This document shows, piece after piece, positions 23,705-32,389 of a DNA stretch of 64,000 nucleotides; positions within the stretch are counted from its first letter, which is position 1; each line of letters opens with the position of its first letter. Source of the DNA: Anaerotruncus rubiinfantis (GTDB lineage Bacteria > Bacillota > Clostridia > Oscillospirales > Ruminococcaceae); assembly GCF_900078395.1 (NCBI RefSeq), contig NZ_FKLA01000009.1, positions 1,440,614-1,504,613 of the forward strand. Direction: 5' to 3'. The notes under the pieces were generated by a model that was given only the letters and a program-made list of their open reading frames with translations, searched no databases and was not told the DNA's origin. A program made the position numbers and the translations under genes.

Positions 23705-24343
23705 TTGAACAAATACCTGCGTTCCTATCTGCCGCTGGTGGATTTTCTGGCGGACTGTCTGGGAGACAGCACCGAAGTGGTGCTGCATGATCTGACAGAC
23801 TGGCATCAGAGCGTGGTGGCGATTCGCAATGGGCATATCAGCGGACGGGTGGTTGGCTCACCGATCACCGACCTGAGCCTGAATGTTCTGAAAACAGCCT
23901 CTTTTGAGAAGCTGCCGTACATGGCGAATTACCAGGGCGTTGCAAAAAATGGGCATCAGTTAAAATCCTCGACTTATTTTATCAAGGATGAGGATGGCCA
24001 GATGGTCGGGATGCTCTGCATCAACAGCGATTACCACGCATTGAGCGAAGCTTATGAAAAACTGGGATCGGTGATCACAGCCTTGGGTTTACAGGGAAAT
24101 ACCGGGATCAAAGAGAACTTCAACATGAATGTTGGCGATCTGGTACAGGCGAACATCAAGCGGATTTGTCCGAATATTGAGGAGCAGGTCGGCAGGATGA
24201 GCCAGAAGGATAAGCTGGAGATTGTGGAAGGGCTCAACGATATGGGTACATTCCTGGTGAAAGGCGCGATTGGCTGTGTTGCTGAAAATCTGGGCGTATC
24301 GGTACCAACCATCTACCGCTATTTAAATATGATCAAGAAGTGA
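23705..24343 (+). CDS. YheO/DauR-type PAS-like HTH regulator
   Basis: This 212-residue protein has an N-terminal YheO-type PAS domain (LGDSTEVVLHDL, then STYFIKDEDGQMVGMLCIN) and a C-terminal helix-turn-helix (LGVSVPTIYRYLN). Members such as DauR regulate amino-acid catabolism. It is cotranscribed with the purine permease, so it may sense a purine or a breakdown product (inference). The start is a TTG with GGGGGAG six bases upstream. A second member of the same family lies at 25588. A terminator follows directly. Confidence 0.83.
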   Translation: MNKYLRSYLPLVDFLADCLGDSTEVVLHDLTDWHQSVVAIRNGHISGRVVGSPITDLSLNVLKTASFEKLPYMANYQGVAKNGHQLKSSTYFIKDEDGQMVGMLCINSDYHALSEAYEKLGSVITALGLQGNTGIKENFNMNVGDLVQANIKRICPNIEEQVGRMSQKDKLEIVEGLNDMGTFLVKGAIGCVAENLGVSVPTIYRYLNMIKK

Positions 24344-25587: not shown

Positions 25588-26220
25588 TCATTTTGCGTCG
25601 ATGTAGCTATAAAGCGTATACTTTGAAATGCCGAAGTATTTGGAAACCTTGTCGCCGCTCTTGGTGATGAGGAACGCCCCGGTGTTGTTGAGGAACTGGA
25701 TCGCTTTGATCTTGTCATCCTTGTTCATCAGCGCGACCGGCTTGCCGACGTTGCGCACACTCTGTTCAATCAGCTCGTCGAGCAGGTCGTTGACATTTTG
25801 GGTAATCCGTTCCGGTTCTTTTTCCGGCTGATCGGTGCTGATGAGCGGTTTGAGCGCGTTTTCCACCATGAGCAGGCTGGTGATGTCATAATTGATCGCA
25901 AAAATTCCCACCGCGTCGCCGTTTTCGTCGCGGATATAGATGGTGCTCGATTTGAGGATTTTTCCGTCGTGCGTTTTGGTCAGATAATTGAGGTGGTCTT
26001 TCAAATTGCTGCGGTCGCCATGAAGCGCTTCCAGAACGACGTGAGAAGGCCCGTCGCCAAGCTTGCGGGAGGTCACATGGCCATTTTCAATCGCGACGAT
26101 CGAACTGTCCGGATTGTTGGAGGTCAGGTCATGCACGACCACTTCGCAGTCATTTCCGAATTGCTGTGCGATCCCTTTGGCAAGCTGTTTCAAAAAATCC
26201 AGCGTCATAGCGTCAAACAT
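25588..26220 (-). CDS. YheO/DauR-type PAS-like HTH regulator
   Basis: This 210-residue paralogue of the regulator at 23705 has FGNDCEVVVHDLTS, STIYIRDENGDAVGIFAIN and a C-terminal helix-turn-helix (YFGISKYTLYSYID). It is divergent from the ssnA-ygfK-hyuA operon and is the natural candidate regulator of purine breakdown here. Its own promoter has an 18-base palindrome (26238-26255) right after the -10, whose half-site ATAGAAT recurs at the start of the ssnA transcript. The effector is unknown. Confidence 0.84.
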   Translation of the reverse strand: MFDAMTLDFLKQLAKGIAQQFGNDCEVVVHDLTSNNPDSSIVAIENGHVTSRKLGDGPSHVVLEALHGDRSNLKDHLNYLTKTHDGKILKSSTIYIRDENGDAVGIFAINYDITSLLMVENALKPLISTDQPEKEPERITQNVNDLLDELIEQSVRNVGKPVALMNKDDKIKAIQFLNNTGAFLITKSGDKVSKYFGISKYTLYSYIDAK

Positions 26221-26237: not shown

Positions 26238-26255
26238 GAATAGAATATTCTATTC
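26238..26255. promoter_or_regulatory. ATAGAAT palindrome at the start site of the YheO-type gene
   Basis: GAATAGAAT-ATTCTATTC is a perfect 18-base palindrome placed at about +5 of the minus-strand transcript. The half-site ATAGAAT/ATTCTAT is repeated at 26373-26379 and 26389-26395, facing the ssnA promoter. Confidence 0.7.
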
Positions 26256-26286: not shown

Positions 26287-26319
26287 CAAAAAATGTTGCA
26301 CCTAAAAAATATTTTTTAG
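26282..26319. promoter_or_regulatory. Two further palindromes in the divergent promoter region
   Basis: TGCAACA-AAAAA-TGTTGCA (26282-26300) and the perfect CTAAAAAAT-ATTTTTTAG (26302-26319) lie between the two promoters. Both could bind regulators, for instance a global one; no identity is assigned. Confidence 0.55.
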
Positions 26320-26336
26320 AAAATGTGCAGGAACTA

Positions 26337-26365
26337 TTGCATTTTAAGCCTGTTCATGTTAAACT
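26337..26365 (+). promoter_or_regulatory. Promoter of ssnA-ygfK-hyuA operon
   Basis: TTGCAT (26337-26342) and TAAACT (26360-26365), 17-base spacer. The transcript would begin near 26372, at the ATAGAAT-N9-ATTCTAT element. Confidence 0.55.
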
Positions 26366-26371
26366 AAAGTC

Positions 26372-26534
26372 AATAGAATAAAGGCAAAATTCTATGAAAA
26401 TTGAATTGTTTTCAGGCTGCAACGGAGTGCTGCGCGCACGGGCTGGATGTTCACCATTTGAACCCGGCTGATTCGCATCCGCCCCCTCCAGCCGGACAGG
26501 GTGTTCATCCAAAGATAGGATGGACGCCTTTTTT
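26372..26534 (+). promoter_or_regulatory. Structured attenuator leader ahead of ssnA, candidate riboswitch
   Basis: A terminator stem GGTGTTCATCC/GGATGGACGCC (26500-26510 with 26518-26528, two G-U pairs) ends in TTTTTT. Upstream, a hairpin closed by CGGG/CCCG (26439-26442, 26463-26466) carries a bulged GGATG (26445-26449). GGATG can pair with CATCC at 26476-26480, or GGATG-TT-CACC (26445-26455) can pair with the 5' arm of the terminator. These choices are mutually exclusive, as in a transcription-control riboswitch. GGAG (26424) with CTCC (26486) closes the fold. The GGAG...GCATCCGC...CTCC layout recalls the tetrahydrofolate riboswitch, but most of its core is missing. Confidence 0.6.
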
Positions 26535-26577
26535 AATGGTTTTGAAAGTATGAACCCGAATGAAGGAGGAAAAAGTC

Positions 26578-27915
26578 ATGTTACTGGTAGGAAACGGAAG
26601 GCTGCTCACCCGCGGGAAACACAACCGCCTGATCGAAAACGGATGTGTCGCAGCCGACGGGGATACGATCGTTGCAGTCGGAACAACCGCTGAACTGAAG
26701 GAAAAATATCCCGGCGCGGATTTCATCGACGCACATGGCGGCATGATCATGCCCGGGCTTATCAACGCCCACAATCACATCTACAGCGCCTTCTCGCGCG
26801 GTATCGCAATCAACGGTTACAACCCGCAGAATTTTCTTGACATCCTCGACGGCATGTGGTGGACGATCGACCGCAACCTGCTGCTTGAAGATACCCGCAT
26901 GAGCGCGATGGCCACCTATCTCGACTGCATCAAATGCGGCGTGACCACTGTTTTTGACCATCATGCGAGTTTCGGCGAGATCCCCGGCAGCCTCTTTGCG
27001 ATCGCGGACGCGGCCCGCGCGCTCGGCGTGCGCACCTGCCTGTGCTATGAGGTCTCCGACCGGGATGGGGAGGAGAAGATGCGCCAGGCGGTCAAAGAGA
27101 ACGCGGACTTCATCAAATTCTGCGCGGAAGAAAATTCCGACATGGTCAAGGGCATGATGGGCATGCACGCTTCCTTCACCCTCTCGGACGCGACCCTCGC
27201 GCACTGCCGCGAAAATACGCCGGAAGGCGTGGGCTTCCACATCCATGTGGCGGAGGGCATGACCGATGTCTACGATTCTCTCAAAAAATATGGCAAACGG
27301 GTGATCAACCGGCTCTACGACAATGATATCCTCGGGGAAAAGACCATCGCTGGCCACTGCATTCATGTCAACGGGATCGAGATGGACATTCTCAAACAGA
27401 CGGATACCATGGTGGTACATAACCCGGAATCGAATATGGGAAACGCGGTCGGCTGCCCGCCGACCATCGAGCTGATGCGCCGGGGCATCCTCTGTGGGCT
27501 CGGCACCGACGGCTACACGAACGACATGTACGAGTCGATGAAGGCCGCCAACTGCCTGCATAAACACAATCTCTGCGACCCGACCGTCGCATGGGCGGAA
27601 GTGCCGCAGATGCTGTTCGAAAACAACGCCGCCATCGGCGCGCGTTCTTTCCAAAAGCCGCTGGGCGAACTTTCGGAAGGAGCGGCGGCAGACATCATCG
27701 TGAGCGACTATATCCCGCTCACCCCGATGAGCGCGGACAATGCGAACGGTCACACCCTGTTCGGCATGAGCGGCCGACAGACGGTGACCACCATCATCGA
27801 TGGAAAGGTCCGGATGAAGGACCGGGAACTCATTGGCATCGATGAACAGGCGGTCCTCGCGCATGCACGGGAACAGGCCGCTGGCATGTGGAAACGGATC
27901 AACGCGAGCAAATAA
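26578..27915 (+). CDS. ssnA: SsnA family aminohydrolase of the purine/urate cluster
   Basis: This 445-residue metal-dependent amidohydrolase matches E. coli SsnA (442 residues) in length. Metal motifs are LINAHNHIYSAF, FHIHVAEG, GHCIHVN and GLGTDGYTND. SsnA genes accompany ygfK, hyuA and xdhD in the bacterial urate/purine degradation clusters and likely open a ring intermediate; the exact reaction is not fixed by sequence. The ATG at 26578 follows AAGGAGG; the upstream in-frame ATG does not. It is first in the operon, after the attenuator leader, and ygfK starts 27 bases after its stop. Confidence 0.88.
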   Translation: MLLVGNGRLLTRGKHNRLIENGCVAADGDTIVAVGTTAELKEKYPGADFIDAHGGMIMPGLINAHNHIYSAFSRGIAINGYNPQNFLDILDGMWWTIDRNLLLEDTRMSAMATYLDCIKCGVTTVFDHHASFGEIPGSLFAIADAARALGVRTCLCYEVSDRDGEEKMRQAVKENADFIKFCAEENSDMVKGMMGMHASFTLSDATLAHCRENTPEGVGFHIHVAEGMTDVYDSLKKYGKRVINRLYDNDILGEKTIAGHCIHVNGIEMDILKQTDTMVVHNPESNMGNAVGCPPTIELMRRGILCGLGTDGYTNDMYESMKAANCLHKHNLCDPTVAWAEVPQMLFENNAAIGARSFQKPLGELSEGAAADIIVSDYIPLTPMSADNANGHTLFGMSGRQTVTTIIDGKVRMKDRELIGIDEQAVLAHAREQAAGMWKRINASK

Positions 27916-27941
27916 AAGAGAAGCGCAAGGAGGATATGATC

Positions 27942-30900
27942 ATGAGCGATAAGATGAGACCGATCGCATTTGATAAATTGATGAACTGGGCACTGAATGA
28001 ATATGCGCAGCAGAAATCGATCTTCGGCGTGGCGAAGGTTTTCCGGCACAAACCGGATGACAAAAAGCTGCCGATCTTCAAAGAGCGGCTCGAAGCGCCG
28101 TTTGGACCGGCGGCTGGCCCGCACACCCAGCTCGCGCAGAACATCATCGCCGCTTATGCGGCGGGAAGCCGCTTTTTCGAGCTCAAGACGGTGCAGAAGA
28201 TGGATGGCGAGGAGCTTTCCGCCTGTGTGGCGAAACCCTGTATTACCGCCGCGGATGAATGCTACAACTGCGAATGGTCGACCGAACTGACCGTCCCGCA
28301 GGCGTTCGACGAATATGTCAAGGCGTGGTTTGCCTGCAAGCTGTTGGCAAAGGAACTGGATTTGGGAGATCCGGATGGTTTTGTATTCAATATGTCGGTC
28401 GGCTACGACCTGGAGGGGATCAAAACTCCAAAAATTGATGCATACATCGAAGGAATGAAGGACGCAGGAAACACCGAAGTGTTCCAGGCATGCAAAAAGT
28501 GGGCGCTTGCGAATGTGTGCCGTTTTGCCAAGGTGGACGCGGCCTATATCGAGGCGGTCAGCCCGCGCGTGAGCGATTCGATCACTCTATCGACCCTGCA
28601 CGGCTGCCCGCCGCAGGAGATCGAGCGGATCGCGACCTACCTCATCACCGAGAAGAACCTCAACACCTACATCAAATGCAACCCGACCCTTTTGGGCTAC
28701 GAATTCGCCCGCAAAACGCTGGATGACCTTGGCTTCGATTATATCGTGTTTGACGACCACCACTTTAAGGAGGATCTGCAGTTCTCCGACGCGGTGCCGA
28801 TGTTCCACCGTCTCACCGCACTCACGCAGGCGCGCGGACTCGAATTCGGCGTAAAGCTCACCAACACCTTTCCGGTCGAGGTATCCGCCGGCGAGCTGCC
28901 GAGCGAGGAGATGTACATGTCCGGCCGGTCGCTTTATCCACTGACCATCTCGCTCGCGAAAAAGATCGCCAAGGAATTTGACGGCAAGCTGCGCATCTCG
29001 TATTCCGGCGGCGCGGATCTGCATAACATTGAAAAGCTCTTCGCCTGCGGCATCTGGCCGATCACCCTGGCCACTACGCTTTTAAAGCCGGGCGGCTACG
29101 AACGGATTTATCAGATGGCCGAAGCGCTCCTCAACTGCGGCGACCAGCCATTTAGCGGGGTGAATGTCGCGGCGGTCAGCGATTTTGCCGAGGATGCGCT
29201 CGGGGATCCCTACTACCGCAAGCCGATCAAGCCCCTGCCGTCCCGCAAAATGGCGAGGAAGGTGCCGCTTGTCGACTGCTTCGAAGCTCCCTGCCGTGAC
29301 GGCTGCCCGATCAGCCAGGACATTCCGGCCTATCTGCGGCTGGCGGGTGAGGGAAACTACCTGGAGGCGCTTAGAGTCATCACCGAGCGCAATCCGCTGC
29401 CATTCATCACCGGCACCATCTGCCCGCATCACTGCGCGGACAAATGCACCCGCAATTTCTATGAGGAGAGCGTGCGCATCCGCGATGTGAAGCTCGAAGC
29501 GGCAAAAGCGGCCTACGCAGACCTCATGAAAGAACTCAAAAAGCCCGTGCCCGCGTCGGACGCGAAGGTTGCGGTTGTGGGCGGCGGGCCCGCCGGCCTT
29601 GCCGCGGGTTATTTCCTGGCGAAAGCGGGGGTGGCGGCCACCGTGTTTGAAAAACGGGGCCAGCTTGGCGGTATCGTGCGCCATGTGATTCCGGCGTTTC
29701 GGGTTTCCACTGCGGCGATCGAGAATGACATTGCGCTGGTGAAGGCGCTGGGCGTGCGGTTTGAAACCGGTGTGGAAATCAGCTCCGCGAAAGAACTGTT
29801 CGACCAGGGATTTACCCATGTGATCTTTGCAAACGGTGCCTGGAAGCCCGGCGTGCTGAAGCTCGAATACGGCGAGGCGATGAATGTCATCGCGTTCCTT
29901 GAGCAGTGCAAGAGCGATATAGACAATGTGAACCTCGGCGAAAACGTTGTTGTCATCGGCGGCGGAAACACCGCCATGGACGCTGCCCGCGCCGCAAAAC
30001 GCGCGCCGGGTGTCAAAAATGTGCGGCTGGTCTACCGCCGCAACAAGCGGTATATGCCCGCCGATGAGGAAGAGCTGGCTTTGGCCATTGCGGATGGCGT
30101 GCAGTTCTGCGACCTGCTTGCGCCGGTCGGCGTCAAAGACGGCGTTCTCACCTGCCATCGTATGAAACTTGGCGAACCGGATGAATCCGGCCGCCGCCGC
30201 CCGGTCGATACCGGTGAAGTGATCACCGTTCCCGCGGATACCGTCATCGCCGCGGTTGGCGAGAAGGTGGACAGCGCGTTCTATGGACAAAACGGCATTG
30301 CGCTCACCGAACGCGGCTATGCGAGGGTGAACGAAAACCTTGAGACGAGCGTTCCGGGCGTCTATATTGTCGGCGACGCAAACCGCGGCCCGGCCACGGT
30401 GGTCGAGGCGATCGCGGATGCGGCGAAAGCGGCCAAAGCGATCTGCGGCGCGGATTGCGACGCTTATGCCGCATGCAATGTAAGCCCGGATTACACGCAT
30501 GCGCTGGCAAAGAAGGGAAAACTCTGCGGGGAGTGCGCTTCCTGCAAGGAAAGCGACCGCTGCCTCGAGTGCGCGACCGTGTGCGAATGCTGCGCCGACG
30601 TCTGCCCGAACCGCGCCAATATCACGGTCGCGGTGCCCGGCAAACGCATGCGCCAGATCATCCATGTAGACGGCATGTGCAATGAATGCGGCAACTGCGC
30701 GACCTTCTGCCCGTACGACAGCGCGCCGTATAAGGACAAATTTACCCTGTTCTGGAGCGAGGAAGACTTTGCGGACAGCGAAAACGAAGGCTTCCTGCTG
30801 CTCGACGGCGAGAAGCAGACCTACCGTGTCCGGCTTGACGGACAGGTGGAATGCGTGAGTCTGGGAGATCCGGAATGTACCGTTCCAGAGGATATCTGCC

Positions 30901-30944
30901 GTCTGATTTCGGCTGCCTGGGGCCAGCGTCAATATCTGTTCTGA
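27942..30944 (+). CDS. ygfK: YgfK-type iron-sulfur flavoprotein of purine degradation
   Basis: This 1000-residue protein resembles E. coli YgfK (about 1030 residues), once called a putative selenate reductase subunit. Residues 1-430 form a dihydroorotate-dehydrogenase-like barrel. A cysteine-rich linker (CRDGCPI near 445) leads to a GltD-like oxidoreductase with two nucleotide folds (VVGGGPAGLAAG near 547, VVIGGGNTAMDAARAAKR near 670). The C-terminus holds ferredoxin-like clusters (CGECASCKESDRCLEC near 862, CNECGNCATFC near 914). It is expected to deliver low-potential electrons for reducing a purine ring. The ATG at 27942 lies eight bases after AAGGAGG, unlike the ATG at 27936. Confidence 0.9.
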   Translation: MSDKMRPIAFDKLMNWALNEYAQQKSIFGVAKVFRHKPDDKKLPIFKERLEAPFGPAAGPHTQLAQNIIAAYAAGSRFFELKTVQKMDGEELSACVAKPCITAADECYNCEWSTELTVPQAFDEYVKAWFACKLLAKELDLGDPDGFVFNMSVGYDLEGIKTPKIDAYIEGMKDAGNTEVFQACKKWALANVCRFAKVDAAYIEAVSPRVSDSITLSTLHGCPPQEIERIATYLITEKNLNTYIKCNPTLLGYEFARKTLDDLGFDYIVFDDHHFKEDLQFSDAVPMFHRLTALTQARGLEFGVKLTNTFPVEVSAGELPSEEMYMSGRSLYPLTISLAKKIAKEFDGKLRISYSGGADLHNIEKLFACGIWPITLATTLLKPGGYERIYQMAEALLNCGDQPFSGVNVAAVSDFAEDALGDPYYRKPIKPLPSRKMARKVPLVDCFEAPCRDGCPISQDIPAYLRLAGEGNYLEALRVITERNPLPFITGTICPHHCADKCTRNFYEESVRIRDVKLEAAKAAYADLMKELKKPVPASDAKVAVVGGGPAGLAAGYFLAKAGVAATVFEKRGQLGGIVRHVIPAFRVSTAAIENDIALVKALGVRFETGVEISSAKELFDQGFTHVIFANGAWKPGVLKLEYGEAMNVIAFLEQCKSDIDNVNLGENVVVIGGGNTAMDAARAAKRAPGVKNVRLVYRRNKRYMPADEEELALAIADGVQFCDLLAPVGVKDGVLTCHRMKLGEPDESGRRRPVDTGEVITVPADTVIAAVGEKVDSAFYGQNGIALTERGYARVNENLETSVPGVYIVGDANRGPATVVEAIADAAKAAKAICGADCDAYAACNVSPDYTHALAKKGKLCGECASCKESDRCLECATVCECCADVCPNRANITVAVPGKRMRQIIHVDGMCNECGNCATFCPYDSAPYKDKFTLFWSEEDFADSENEGFLLLDGEKQTYRVRLDGQVECVSLGDPECTVPEDICRLISAAWGQRQYLF

Positions 30945-30959
30945 TCTGCTATCGTTTCA

Positions 30960-30983
30960 GGGACGGGGACTTTCCCCCGTCCC
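30960..30983 (+). terminator. GC-rich hairpin between ygfK and hyuA
   Basis: GGGACGGGG with CCCCCGTCCC forms a strong stem, but only a weak T stretch follows. It may cause partial termination or protect the upstream mRNA end. Confidence 0.45.
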
Positions 30984-31012
30984 TTGAAGCCGTTTTAAAG
31001 GAGAGATGTTTT

Positions 31013-32389
31013 ATGGATCTGATCATTCGGGGCGGCACAGTTGTGACGCCGCGGGAGAGTTATGAAGCTGACGTGCGGATCACAGAGGGGAGGATCTCCG
31101 CTGTCGGGCGGGATCTGGCGGCAAAGGGATGTGAAACTTACGATGCCTCCGGCTGCAAACTGTTCCCGGGCTTTATCGACGCGCACACCCATCTCGATAT
31201 GGATACCGGCGCGGCGCTCACCGCGGACGATTTTGTGAGCGGCACGCGTGCCGCCGCCGCGGGTGGAACGACGATGCTGCTTGACTTTGCAACGCAGGAC
31301 CGCGGCGGGACGCTCTGCGGCGCATTGGACGTCTGGCATGGCAAGGCCGACGGAAAATCCTCCTGCGACTATGGCTTCCATATGGCAATCACCGACTGGA
31401 ATGAAATGGTTTCGCGGGAGCTTGACGAGATGGCGCGGCAGGGCGTGACCTCGTTCAAGTGCTACCTTGCCTATGATAATCTGCGGATCAGCGACGGCCA
31501 GCTTTATGAGATCCTGAAGCGGGTTGGCCAGCTGCATGGCATCGTGGGCGTTCACTGCGAGAACGGCGATCTGGTCAACGAAATGATCGCTGAAAACCGC
31601 CGCGCGGGCAACCTCTCAACGGAATACCACCCGCTGTCCCGTCCGGATTTTGTCGAAGCTGAAGCGATTGCGCGCTACTGCTATATTGCGAAAGCAGCGG
31701 GCGTGCCGGTCAACATCGTGCATTTGAGCACCCGGATGGGGCTCGAAGAGGCGCTGCGGGCCCGCGCGCGCGGGCAAAAGGTCTATATCGAGTCCTGCCC
31801 GCAATATTTCGCATTTGACGATAACGTTTACAGCTTGCCGGACTTTGCGGGCGCGAAATACGTCTGCTCGCCGCCGGTGCGTAAGCCATATGATCAGCGG
31901 GCGCTGTGGGACGCGCTCGCAAAAGGTGAAATCGATACGGTTTCCACCGACCATTGCTCTTTCAACTGGAAAGGGCAGAAGGAACTGGGCCGGGAGGATT
32001 TTTCCAAAATTCCCAATGGCCTGCCCGGCATCGAACACCGGCCTGCCGTGATGTACACGCTCGGCGTGGCGGCGGGGCGGATGACCGAAAACCAGATGGC
32101 CGCGATGCTCTCTGAAAATACCGCCCGGCTTTTTGGCATGTATCCGCGCAAAGGCGTGATCGCGCCGGGCGCGGATGCGGACATCGTCGTGTGGGACCCC
32201 ACGTGCTGTTGGACAATCACGGCCGCTGATATGGAGCAGAAGGTCGACTATACCCCGTATGAAGGTATGCGGATGCAGGGAAAAGCAAAGGCGGTCTTTC
32301 TGCGTGGACAGCTGGTGGCCGCCGGCGGAAAGGTGCTTATGGAACGCAAAGGCGTCTATGTTCCACGCGGCGAAAGTGAATATTTCTAA
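31013..32389 (+). CDS. hyuA: Hydantoinase/dihydropyrimidinase-type cyclic amidohydrolase
   Basis: This 458-residue enzyme matches the size of E. coli HyuA/YgeZ (461). Motifs: DAHTHLDM (metal), the carbamylated lysine in TSFKCYLAY, HCENGDL, and STDHCSF with the metal aspartate. It opens hydantoin-like rings. In the purine cluster it probably acts on a ring intermediate made by YgfK and SsnA (inference from linkage). AAAGGAG lies before the ATG at 31013; the longer frame runs into ygfK. A bidirectional terminator follows. Confidence 0.88.
   Translation: MDLIIRGGTVVTPRESYEADVRITEGRISAVGRDLAAKGCETYDASGCKLFPGFIDAHTHLDMDTGAALTADDFVSGTRAAAAGGTTMLLDFATQDRGGTLCGALDVWHGKADGKSSCDYGFHMAITDWNEMVSRELDEMARQGVTSFKCYLAYDNLRISDGQLYEILKRVGQLHGIVGVHCENGDLVNEMIAENRRAGNLSTEYHPLSRPDFVEAEAIARYCYIAKAAGVPVNIVHLSTRMGLEEALRARARGQKVYIESCPQYFAFDDNVYSLPDFAGAKYVCSPPVRKPYDQRALWDALAKGEIDTVSTDHCSFNWKGQKELGREDFSKIPNGLPGIEHRPAVMYTLGVAAGRMTENQMAAMLSENTARLFGMYPRKGVIAPGADADIVVWDPTCCWTITAADMEQKVDYTPYEGMRMQGKAKAVFLRGQLVAAGGKVLMERKGVYVPRGESEYF

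Follow-up and report, generated by a model that had tools for sequence, protein, structure and literature searches.

The leader upstream of ssnA in the window, by which we mean the whole stretch of 64,000 nucleotides analysed here, is a member of the known RNA family ssnA RNA (Rfam RF03031), and it probably works as an ON switch at the level of transcription, through which a small molecule of purine catabolism would activate the genes ssnA-ygfK-hyuA for anaerobic urate degradation. The Rfam model matches over its full length at 26407-26454 (all coordinates are on the plus strand unless noted otherwise), with a cmscan score of 51.4 bits against a gathering cut-off of 37.3 bits (E = 3.2e-11), and RF03031 is the sole family out of 4227 Rfam families that matches at E up to 1 within 26300-26600. 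Our rebuilt model, R1, the alignment of which includes the window, scores 51.5 bits at 26412-26446. Besides the score above the curated cut-off, the leader shares with the family the core sequence, the 2 helices P1 and P2 with the conserved internal loop, and the place before ssnA, with the core ending at 26445 and ssnA starting at 26578. The Rfam model itself spans 48 nt without a terminator, the window sequence agrees poorly with it at the flanks, and the alternative pairings and terminators of the leaders described below lie outside or across the edge of that model. The initial annotation had proposed a new class of riboswitch or attenuator with some features recalling the tetrahydrofolate (THF) riboswitch (RF01831). 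The leader is already catalogued as RF03031, and the Rfam search of 26300-26600 gave no match to a THF model at E up to 1; nor was there a match in this search to the xanthine/urate (NMT1) riboswitch, which we assume to be among the 4227 families.

The conserved, aptamer-like core (Rfam model positions 9-39) occupies 26415-26445, located 5' of most of the elements named in the initial annotation, and stands out by column conservation in an alignment of 102 distinct sequences (alignment A2), in which 12 of 36 columns are invariant and 10 more are conserved at 90% or above. Its 31 nt form 2 helices of 4 bp each, namely P1, in which 26415-26418 pairs with the GGCU of 26441-26444, and the P2 hairpin (26427-26439), in which 26427-26430 pairs with 26436-26439. 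P1 and P2 are paired in 99.9% of 816 cells, compared with at most 62.4% for a slid structure. Double-sided changes occupy 20 cells versus 5.7 in shuffles, with none of 500 shuffles as high, and affect 3 pairs: 9-38 (AU, GU, GC) and 10-37 (GC, AU, GU) in P1, as well as 24-30; in P2, C-G is replaced by U-A on both sides in 8 of the 102 sequences. A count of 3 doubly changed pairs was reached in 61 of the 500 shuffles, and the covariation thus comes from 3 pairs only. Sequences collected by the pattern scan, which are mixed in A2 with those found by Rfam, were selected for most of the core positions and are therefore silent on core variation. In the window, 7 pairs of P1 and P2 were checked and are canonical, and the eighth, 26415-26444, is G-U. 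One divergent member (L276) has P1 rewritten as GACC/GGUC with all pairs retained.

Downstream of the core, the window leader carries an intrinsic terminator with a U-tract (26498-26534; stem 26498-26530, U-tract 26529-26534, -18.2 kcal/mol), just as the initial annotation had read it, and the 2 competing pairings which it described are also present. In the open pairing, GGATG-TT-CACC (26445-26455), located directly after P1, pairs with GGTG-TT-CATCC (26500-26510), the 5' arm of the terminator, which doubles as the 3' strand of the antiterminator; all pairs checked are canonical. The closed pairing of GGATG (26445-26449) with CATCC (26476-26480) is likewise canonical and is longer than originally described: GGGC (26440-26443) adds pairs with GCCC (26481-26484), so that GGGC-U-GGATG (26440-26449) and CATCC-GCCC (26476-26484) form 9 canonical pairs with 1 bulged U. 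Formation of this helix would remove the P1 3' strand and the antiterminator strand simultaneously. The 2 remaining pairings of the initial annotation, GGAG (26424-26427)/CTCC and CGGG (26439-26442)/CCCG, use bases of the P1 and P2 helices of the core itself and would hence belong to an off state.

When compared with a dinucleotide-shuffled linker, the closed helix of the window is better than expected (p = 0.012), and the antiterminator pairing of the window alone is weak (p = 0.10 with dinucleotide shuffles, swap rank 0.16, and 0.025 with mononucleotide shuffles). Folding of the leader as a whole (26400-26540) gives z = -1.96, with 7 of 200 shuffles equally good. In a model of the growing transcript, the closed helix has a probability of 0.85 at 26485 in the free RNA and of 0.32 with the core forced, and at 26515-26520 the antiterminator has probabilities of 0.98 and 0.88 in the free RNA, in which the core is not forced. 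At 26525, the free RNA has terminator and antiterminator probabilities of 0.68 and 0, respectively, versus 0.30 and 0.58 with the core forced, and from 26530 onward, with the hairpin complete, the terminator stands at 1.00 with or without the core. The modelled effect of the core in the window would accordingly be limited to a short stage of transcription around 26525 and the predicted coupling is modest, so that it carries less evidential weight than what the relatives show.

In the mechanism that we propose for the window, binding of a purine-catabolic small molecule would stabilise the core, with P1 holding the GGCU of 26441-26444; the strand 26445-26455 would then capture the terminator 5' arm at 26500-26510, and RNA polymerase would read into ssnA. 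When the ligand is absent, GGGC-U-GGATG would pair with CATCC-GCCC (26476-26484), breaking P1 and hiding the antiterminator strand, and the terminator would form.

The relatives show how the core is wired to terminators. Removal of 13 sequences with 4 or 5 edits from 202 distinct core-like matches left 189 leaders, a set that is without the upstream copies of tandem pairs, 2 of which were added to A2. Terminator layouts were counted in 184 of these leaders (5 were dropped for having too little downstream DNA), which are related to each other and fall into 78 clusters, one of them with 77 leaders. In 38 leaders, the best terminator is formed out of core sequence; another 11 have a terminator abutting the core, 129 have a distal one, and 6 have none. 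The 5' arm of the terminator is the 3' part of the core in some leaders (L104, L109, L034, and L247) and its 5' half in others (L097 and L249), and pairing with the 5' half across a long loop is also found in 2 distal and 1 missing-terminator leaders. Overall, the base pairs of the core and of the terminator are incompatible in 39 of 181 scored leaders. In 25 of the 41 leaders concerned (the 38 plus the 3 with long loops), representing 22 of 34 clusters, the core pairs more strongly with its own 3' flank than with shuffled versions of it (p ≤ 0.05). The 16 core-embedded leaders that are not significant at 0.05 include 4 leaders of NfnAB-like genes (p 0.73-0.83) and a hyuA leader (L230), each of which has a strong hairpin. 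A classification based on duplexes only had assigned more leaders to the core and was replaced, given that its long 3' arms, on our reading, included both arms of the terminator. In the abutting leaders (L016, L070, L071, L222, and others), the terminator begins no more than a few bases past P1, and these leaders show no obvious control logic. Some leaders (L004, L017, L052, L053, L060, and L093) carry 2 ssnA RNAs one after the other, separated by 117-169 nt; in tandem leaders of the Gemmiger type, which were read by eye, each copy has a hairpin with a U-tract that pairs with the 5' half of the core.

In leaders with distal terminators, the design followed by the window leader, the strand right after P1 is complementary to the 5' arm of the terminator. 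This was tested on 128 leaders in 38 clusters (2 short leaders were dropped): summed over the 38 cluster representatives, the pairing energy is -564.8 versus -367.5 (sd 20.4) in permutations, none of 5000 of which did as well. Individually, 22 of the 38 representatives are significant relative to shuffled tails (p ≤ 0.05), and 9 of the 38 are so by swap rank. Of the 2 competing states that had been proposed for the window, the open pairing is thus general among relatives with distal terminators, whereas the closed pairing is not: only 4 of 36 leaders with long linkers have such a linker helix at p ≤ 0.05, and a general off-state helix of this kind is unsupported. Forcing of the core in truncated transcripts of 130 leaders raised the probability of the antiterminator by more than 0.1 in 40, lowered it in 12, and left it unchanged in 78, including the window leader. 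Equilibrium coupling between core and terminator in full-length leaders, which carries little information in the case of distal terminators, does not exceed 1 kcal/mol in either direction for 89 of 132 such leaders, lies above +1 for 35, and falls below -1 for 8. Another helix may provide the off state in the largest lineage, where a strand upstream of the core pairs with the post-core strand over at least 5 bp in 97 of 187 leaders (2 were dropped) from 11 clusters, compared with a mean of 20 and at most 29 in shuffles. By forming, this extra helix would deprive P1 of positions 9 and 10 and mask the antiterminator strand; a role in closing the aptamer is the alternative.

Since the folded core would prevent the terminator in both the core-built and the distal designs, either directly or via the antiterminator, the comparison argues for an ON switch, a direction that also suits a catabolic operon. 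Across the relatives, mutually exclusive pairings link the core to a gene-control element, as expected of a riboswitch, and the assignment of the window leader as a cis-regulatory attenuator with mutually exclusive states before a purine-degradation operon is supported. Conceivable, although we advance it with less assurance than the reading of the window leader itself, is the broader proposal that ssnA RNA is a natural urate- (or 2,8-dioxopurine-) activated transcriptional ON riboswitch for the reductive urate pathway in Oscillospiraceae and their relatives, with an unusually small aptamer (31-nt core) wired to terminators in at least 3 ways (through the 3' part of the core, through its 5' half, and by antiterminator capture), and in some genomes with 2 copies in series.

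The genes behind the window leader are ssnA (26578-27915; NF005540 and TIGR03314 above cut-off, with the start placed by the ribosome-binding site and the profile), ygfK (27936-30944; TIGR03315, 1435 bits), and the hydantoinase gene hyuA (31010-32389; TIGR02033, 577.9 bits, with a presumptive start; the profile begins at residue 57 of the open reading frame 30851-32389). Apart from SsnA, YgfK, and D-hydantoinase (HyuA), NCBIfam models identify in the window a Se-dependent xanthine dehydrogenase, an NCS2 permease (pbuX score just under the cut-off), YgeX (diaminopropionate ammonia-lyase), YgeY, YgeW, and carbamate kinase; a MocA/YgfJ-like protein scores below its cut-off. The xanthine dehydrogenase gene is on the other strand and is not behind the leader. 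These genes match the anaerobic reductive urate pathway as outlined in PMC12507026, in which XdhD produces 2,8-dioxopurine, YgfK and SsnA carry out reduction and opening, and HyuA, YgeW/YgeY, and YgeX finish the degradation. Between the permease gene and ssnA, there are 2 genes for YheO-like PAS_6/HTH_22 regulators, at 23705-24343 on the plus strand and at 25588-26220 on the minus strand; a CdaR-like protein, a further neighbouring regulator, scores below its cut-off. A perfect palindrome (GAATAGAAT/ATTCTATTC) at 26238-26255 precedes the divergent regulator gene. Just 5' of the RNA, at 26373-26395, ATAGAAT-N9-ATTCTAT forms an inverted repeat with a spacer. Both are possible operators of the divergent regulator, and the operon may therefore have DNA- as well as RNA-level control. 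The urate-pathway genes are followed in the same locus by a tRNA-Sec identified by Rfam and by frames which we take to be selA and selB.

The first gene after the leader is ssnA in 175 of the 189 distinct leaders, an NfnAB-like pair in 4, hyuA in 2, a Xan_ur permease gene in 1, and a gene for a YczE/DUF6198 membrane protein in 1; it is unassigned in 1, and the leader DNA is too short in 5. No purine-synthesis genes are found among the assigned first genes. The NfnAB-like electron-transfer pair behind ssnA RNA (L249, L253, L097, and L236, of which L249 was scanned) may feed reductant to urate reduction; a frame beside L249 is presumably carbamate kinase. Gene content suggests urate, or a compound close to it, as the ligand, and our best guess places urate first, followed by xanthine and 2,8-dioxopurine; the steps encoded behind the leader come after urate in the pathway. 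The purine or urate ligand suggested in the initial annotation thus gains indirect support. The proposed ligand class and the purine-catabolic genes are shared with the NMT1 motif, the xanthine/urate riboswitch, which is described in PMC7373994 as a class of alpha-, beta-, and gamma-Proteobacteria that represses its genes, probably by acting on translation. By contrast, ssnA leaders are found in Oscillospiraceae and relatives and employ a transcription terminator with a predicted ON direction, and the window leader matches no Rfam family other than ssnA RNA.

The exact 20-base core pattern was present in 109 stretches from one-per-species genomes; among the 80 listed matches, most titles name Oscillospiraceae or their genera and many only Clostridia, and a match in Rhizobiales (L026) was rejected as a clear chance hit. 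RF03031 matched in 110 of 400 genomes from the family of genome G001 (103 over the cut-off), in 18 of 297 from the Gemmiger family (15 over the cut-off), in 9 of 295 from the order, and in 6 of 391 from the class, where the only one over the cut-off is the centre genome itself; in the phylum, R1 matched only the centre genome among 189. The weak Rfam matches outside the family (5 class genomes and 3 Gemmiger-family genomes) have no similarity to 7 window proteins within the loci examined. SsnA (E ≤ 1e-100) is encoded in 130 of the 400 genomes drawn from the G001 family, that is, in 105 of the 110 genomes with the RNA versus 25 of the 290 without it; 20 of these 25 were inspected. SsnA proteins at least 65% identical to that of the window occur in 9 genomes, 8 without the RNA and 1 (G076) with it. 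Two divergent members, in which P1 is changed but paired, precede ssnA in G203 (L276, 1772-1806, minus strand) and G075 (L278, 1604-1638, minus strand). They score 34.7 and 37.3 bits, respectively, with R1, the former being inside the alignment of R1 and the latter outside, and both are missed by the Rfam cut-off.

Several other readings of the leader were considered. Rather than being an aptamer, the core might serve as the docking site for an antitermination protein that binds RNA, which we regard as unlikely. LicT/BglG-type proteins bind a RAT site of approximately 30 nt overlapping a terminator, a small hairpin with an internal loop that folds in a mutually exclusive manner, and a nearly invariant core of only 31 nt that shares sequence with the terminator in 38 of 184 leaders has the same layout; however, the 2 regulators beside the operon are of the DNA-binding PAS_6/HTH_22 type, and the proteins scanned in the window, which cover part of its genes, include none recognised as an RNA-binding antiterminator, the RNA having been compared via Rfam only. 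We give still less credence to an OFF switch, in which the bound core would favour the terminator and the operon would be shut by an end product or by a preferred purine or nitrogen source. Such a direction would fit the 12 of 130 distal leaders in which forcing of the core lowers the antiterminator probability and the 8 of 132 with coupling below -1 kcal/mol, and the extra upstream helix of the largest lineage can be read as an aptamer-closing stem. Yet that helix uses positions 9 and 10, which are part of P1, the embedded terminators are incompatible with the core, and the antiterminator strand, which starts directly after P1, is compatible with it.

As to what is sensed, a non-purine signal, such as the reductant state, a selenium or molybdenum compound, or ammonia, appears improbable, slightly more so than the OFF direction. 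The tRNA-Sec, the presumed selA and selB frames, and the MocA/YgfJ-like gene (below cut-off) in the same locus, as well as the 4 leaders before the NfnAB-like pair, would be in line with such a signal, but among the 183 leaders whose first gene was assigned, there is none in front of a gene for selenium or molybdenum. A THF-like riboswitch is the most improbable reading by far: the short resemblance noted initially, GCATCCGC...CTCC together with a GGATG/CATCC-like contact, is the evidence in its favour, whereas membership in that family is refuted by the Rfam search described above, the contact is not general among relatives, and the gene context is that of urate degradation, with 182 of 184 leaders preceding ssnA, hyuA, NfnAB-like, or permease genes (of the other 2, one precedes a YczE-like gene and one is unassigned). 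We retain the ON switch responding to a purine-catabolic molecule as the preferred reading of the window leader.

The ssnA RNA family is already known from Rfam, and the window adds 1 member to it. Provisionally new are the ON logic across several terminator layouts and the tie to the urate pathway: our literature search returned no paper on ssnA RNA, its shared ON logic, or the urate link, and no RNA sensor for the urate pathway was found in the literature searched. The novelty is provisional because the source paper of the family, presumably Weinberg 2017, is outside the literature covered. According to PMC12507026, a gut-bacterial urate gene cluster influences host purine and urate homeostasis, and urate degradation in E. 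coli is repressed by glucose. The prediction that follows from the proposed mechanism, namely that the ligand raises read-through, is cheaply testable, with a single 31-nt core and few candidate ligands. If urate or its first reduction product is sensed, an orphan RNA family would gain its ligand, the sensor of the pathway would be identified, and a ready urate-responsive genetic part would be supplied.
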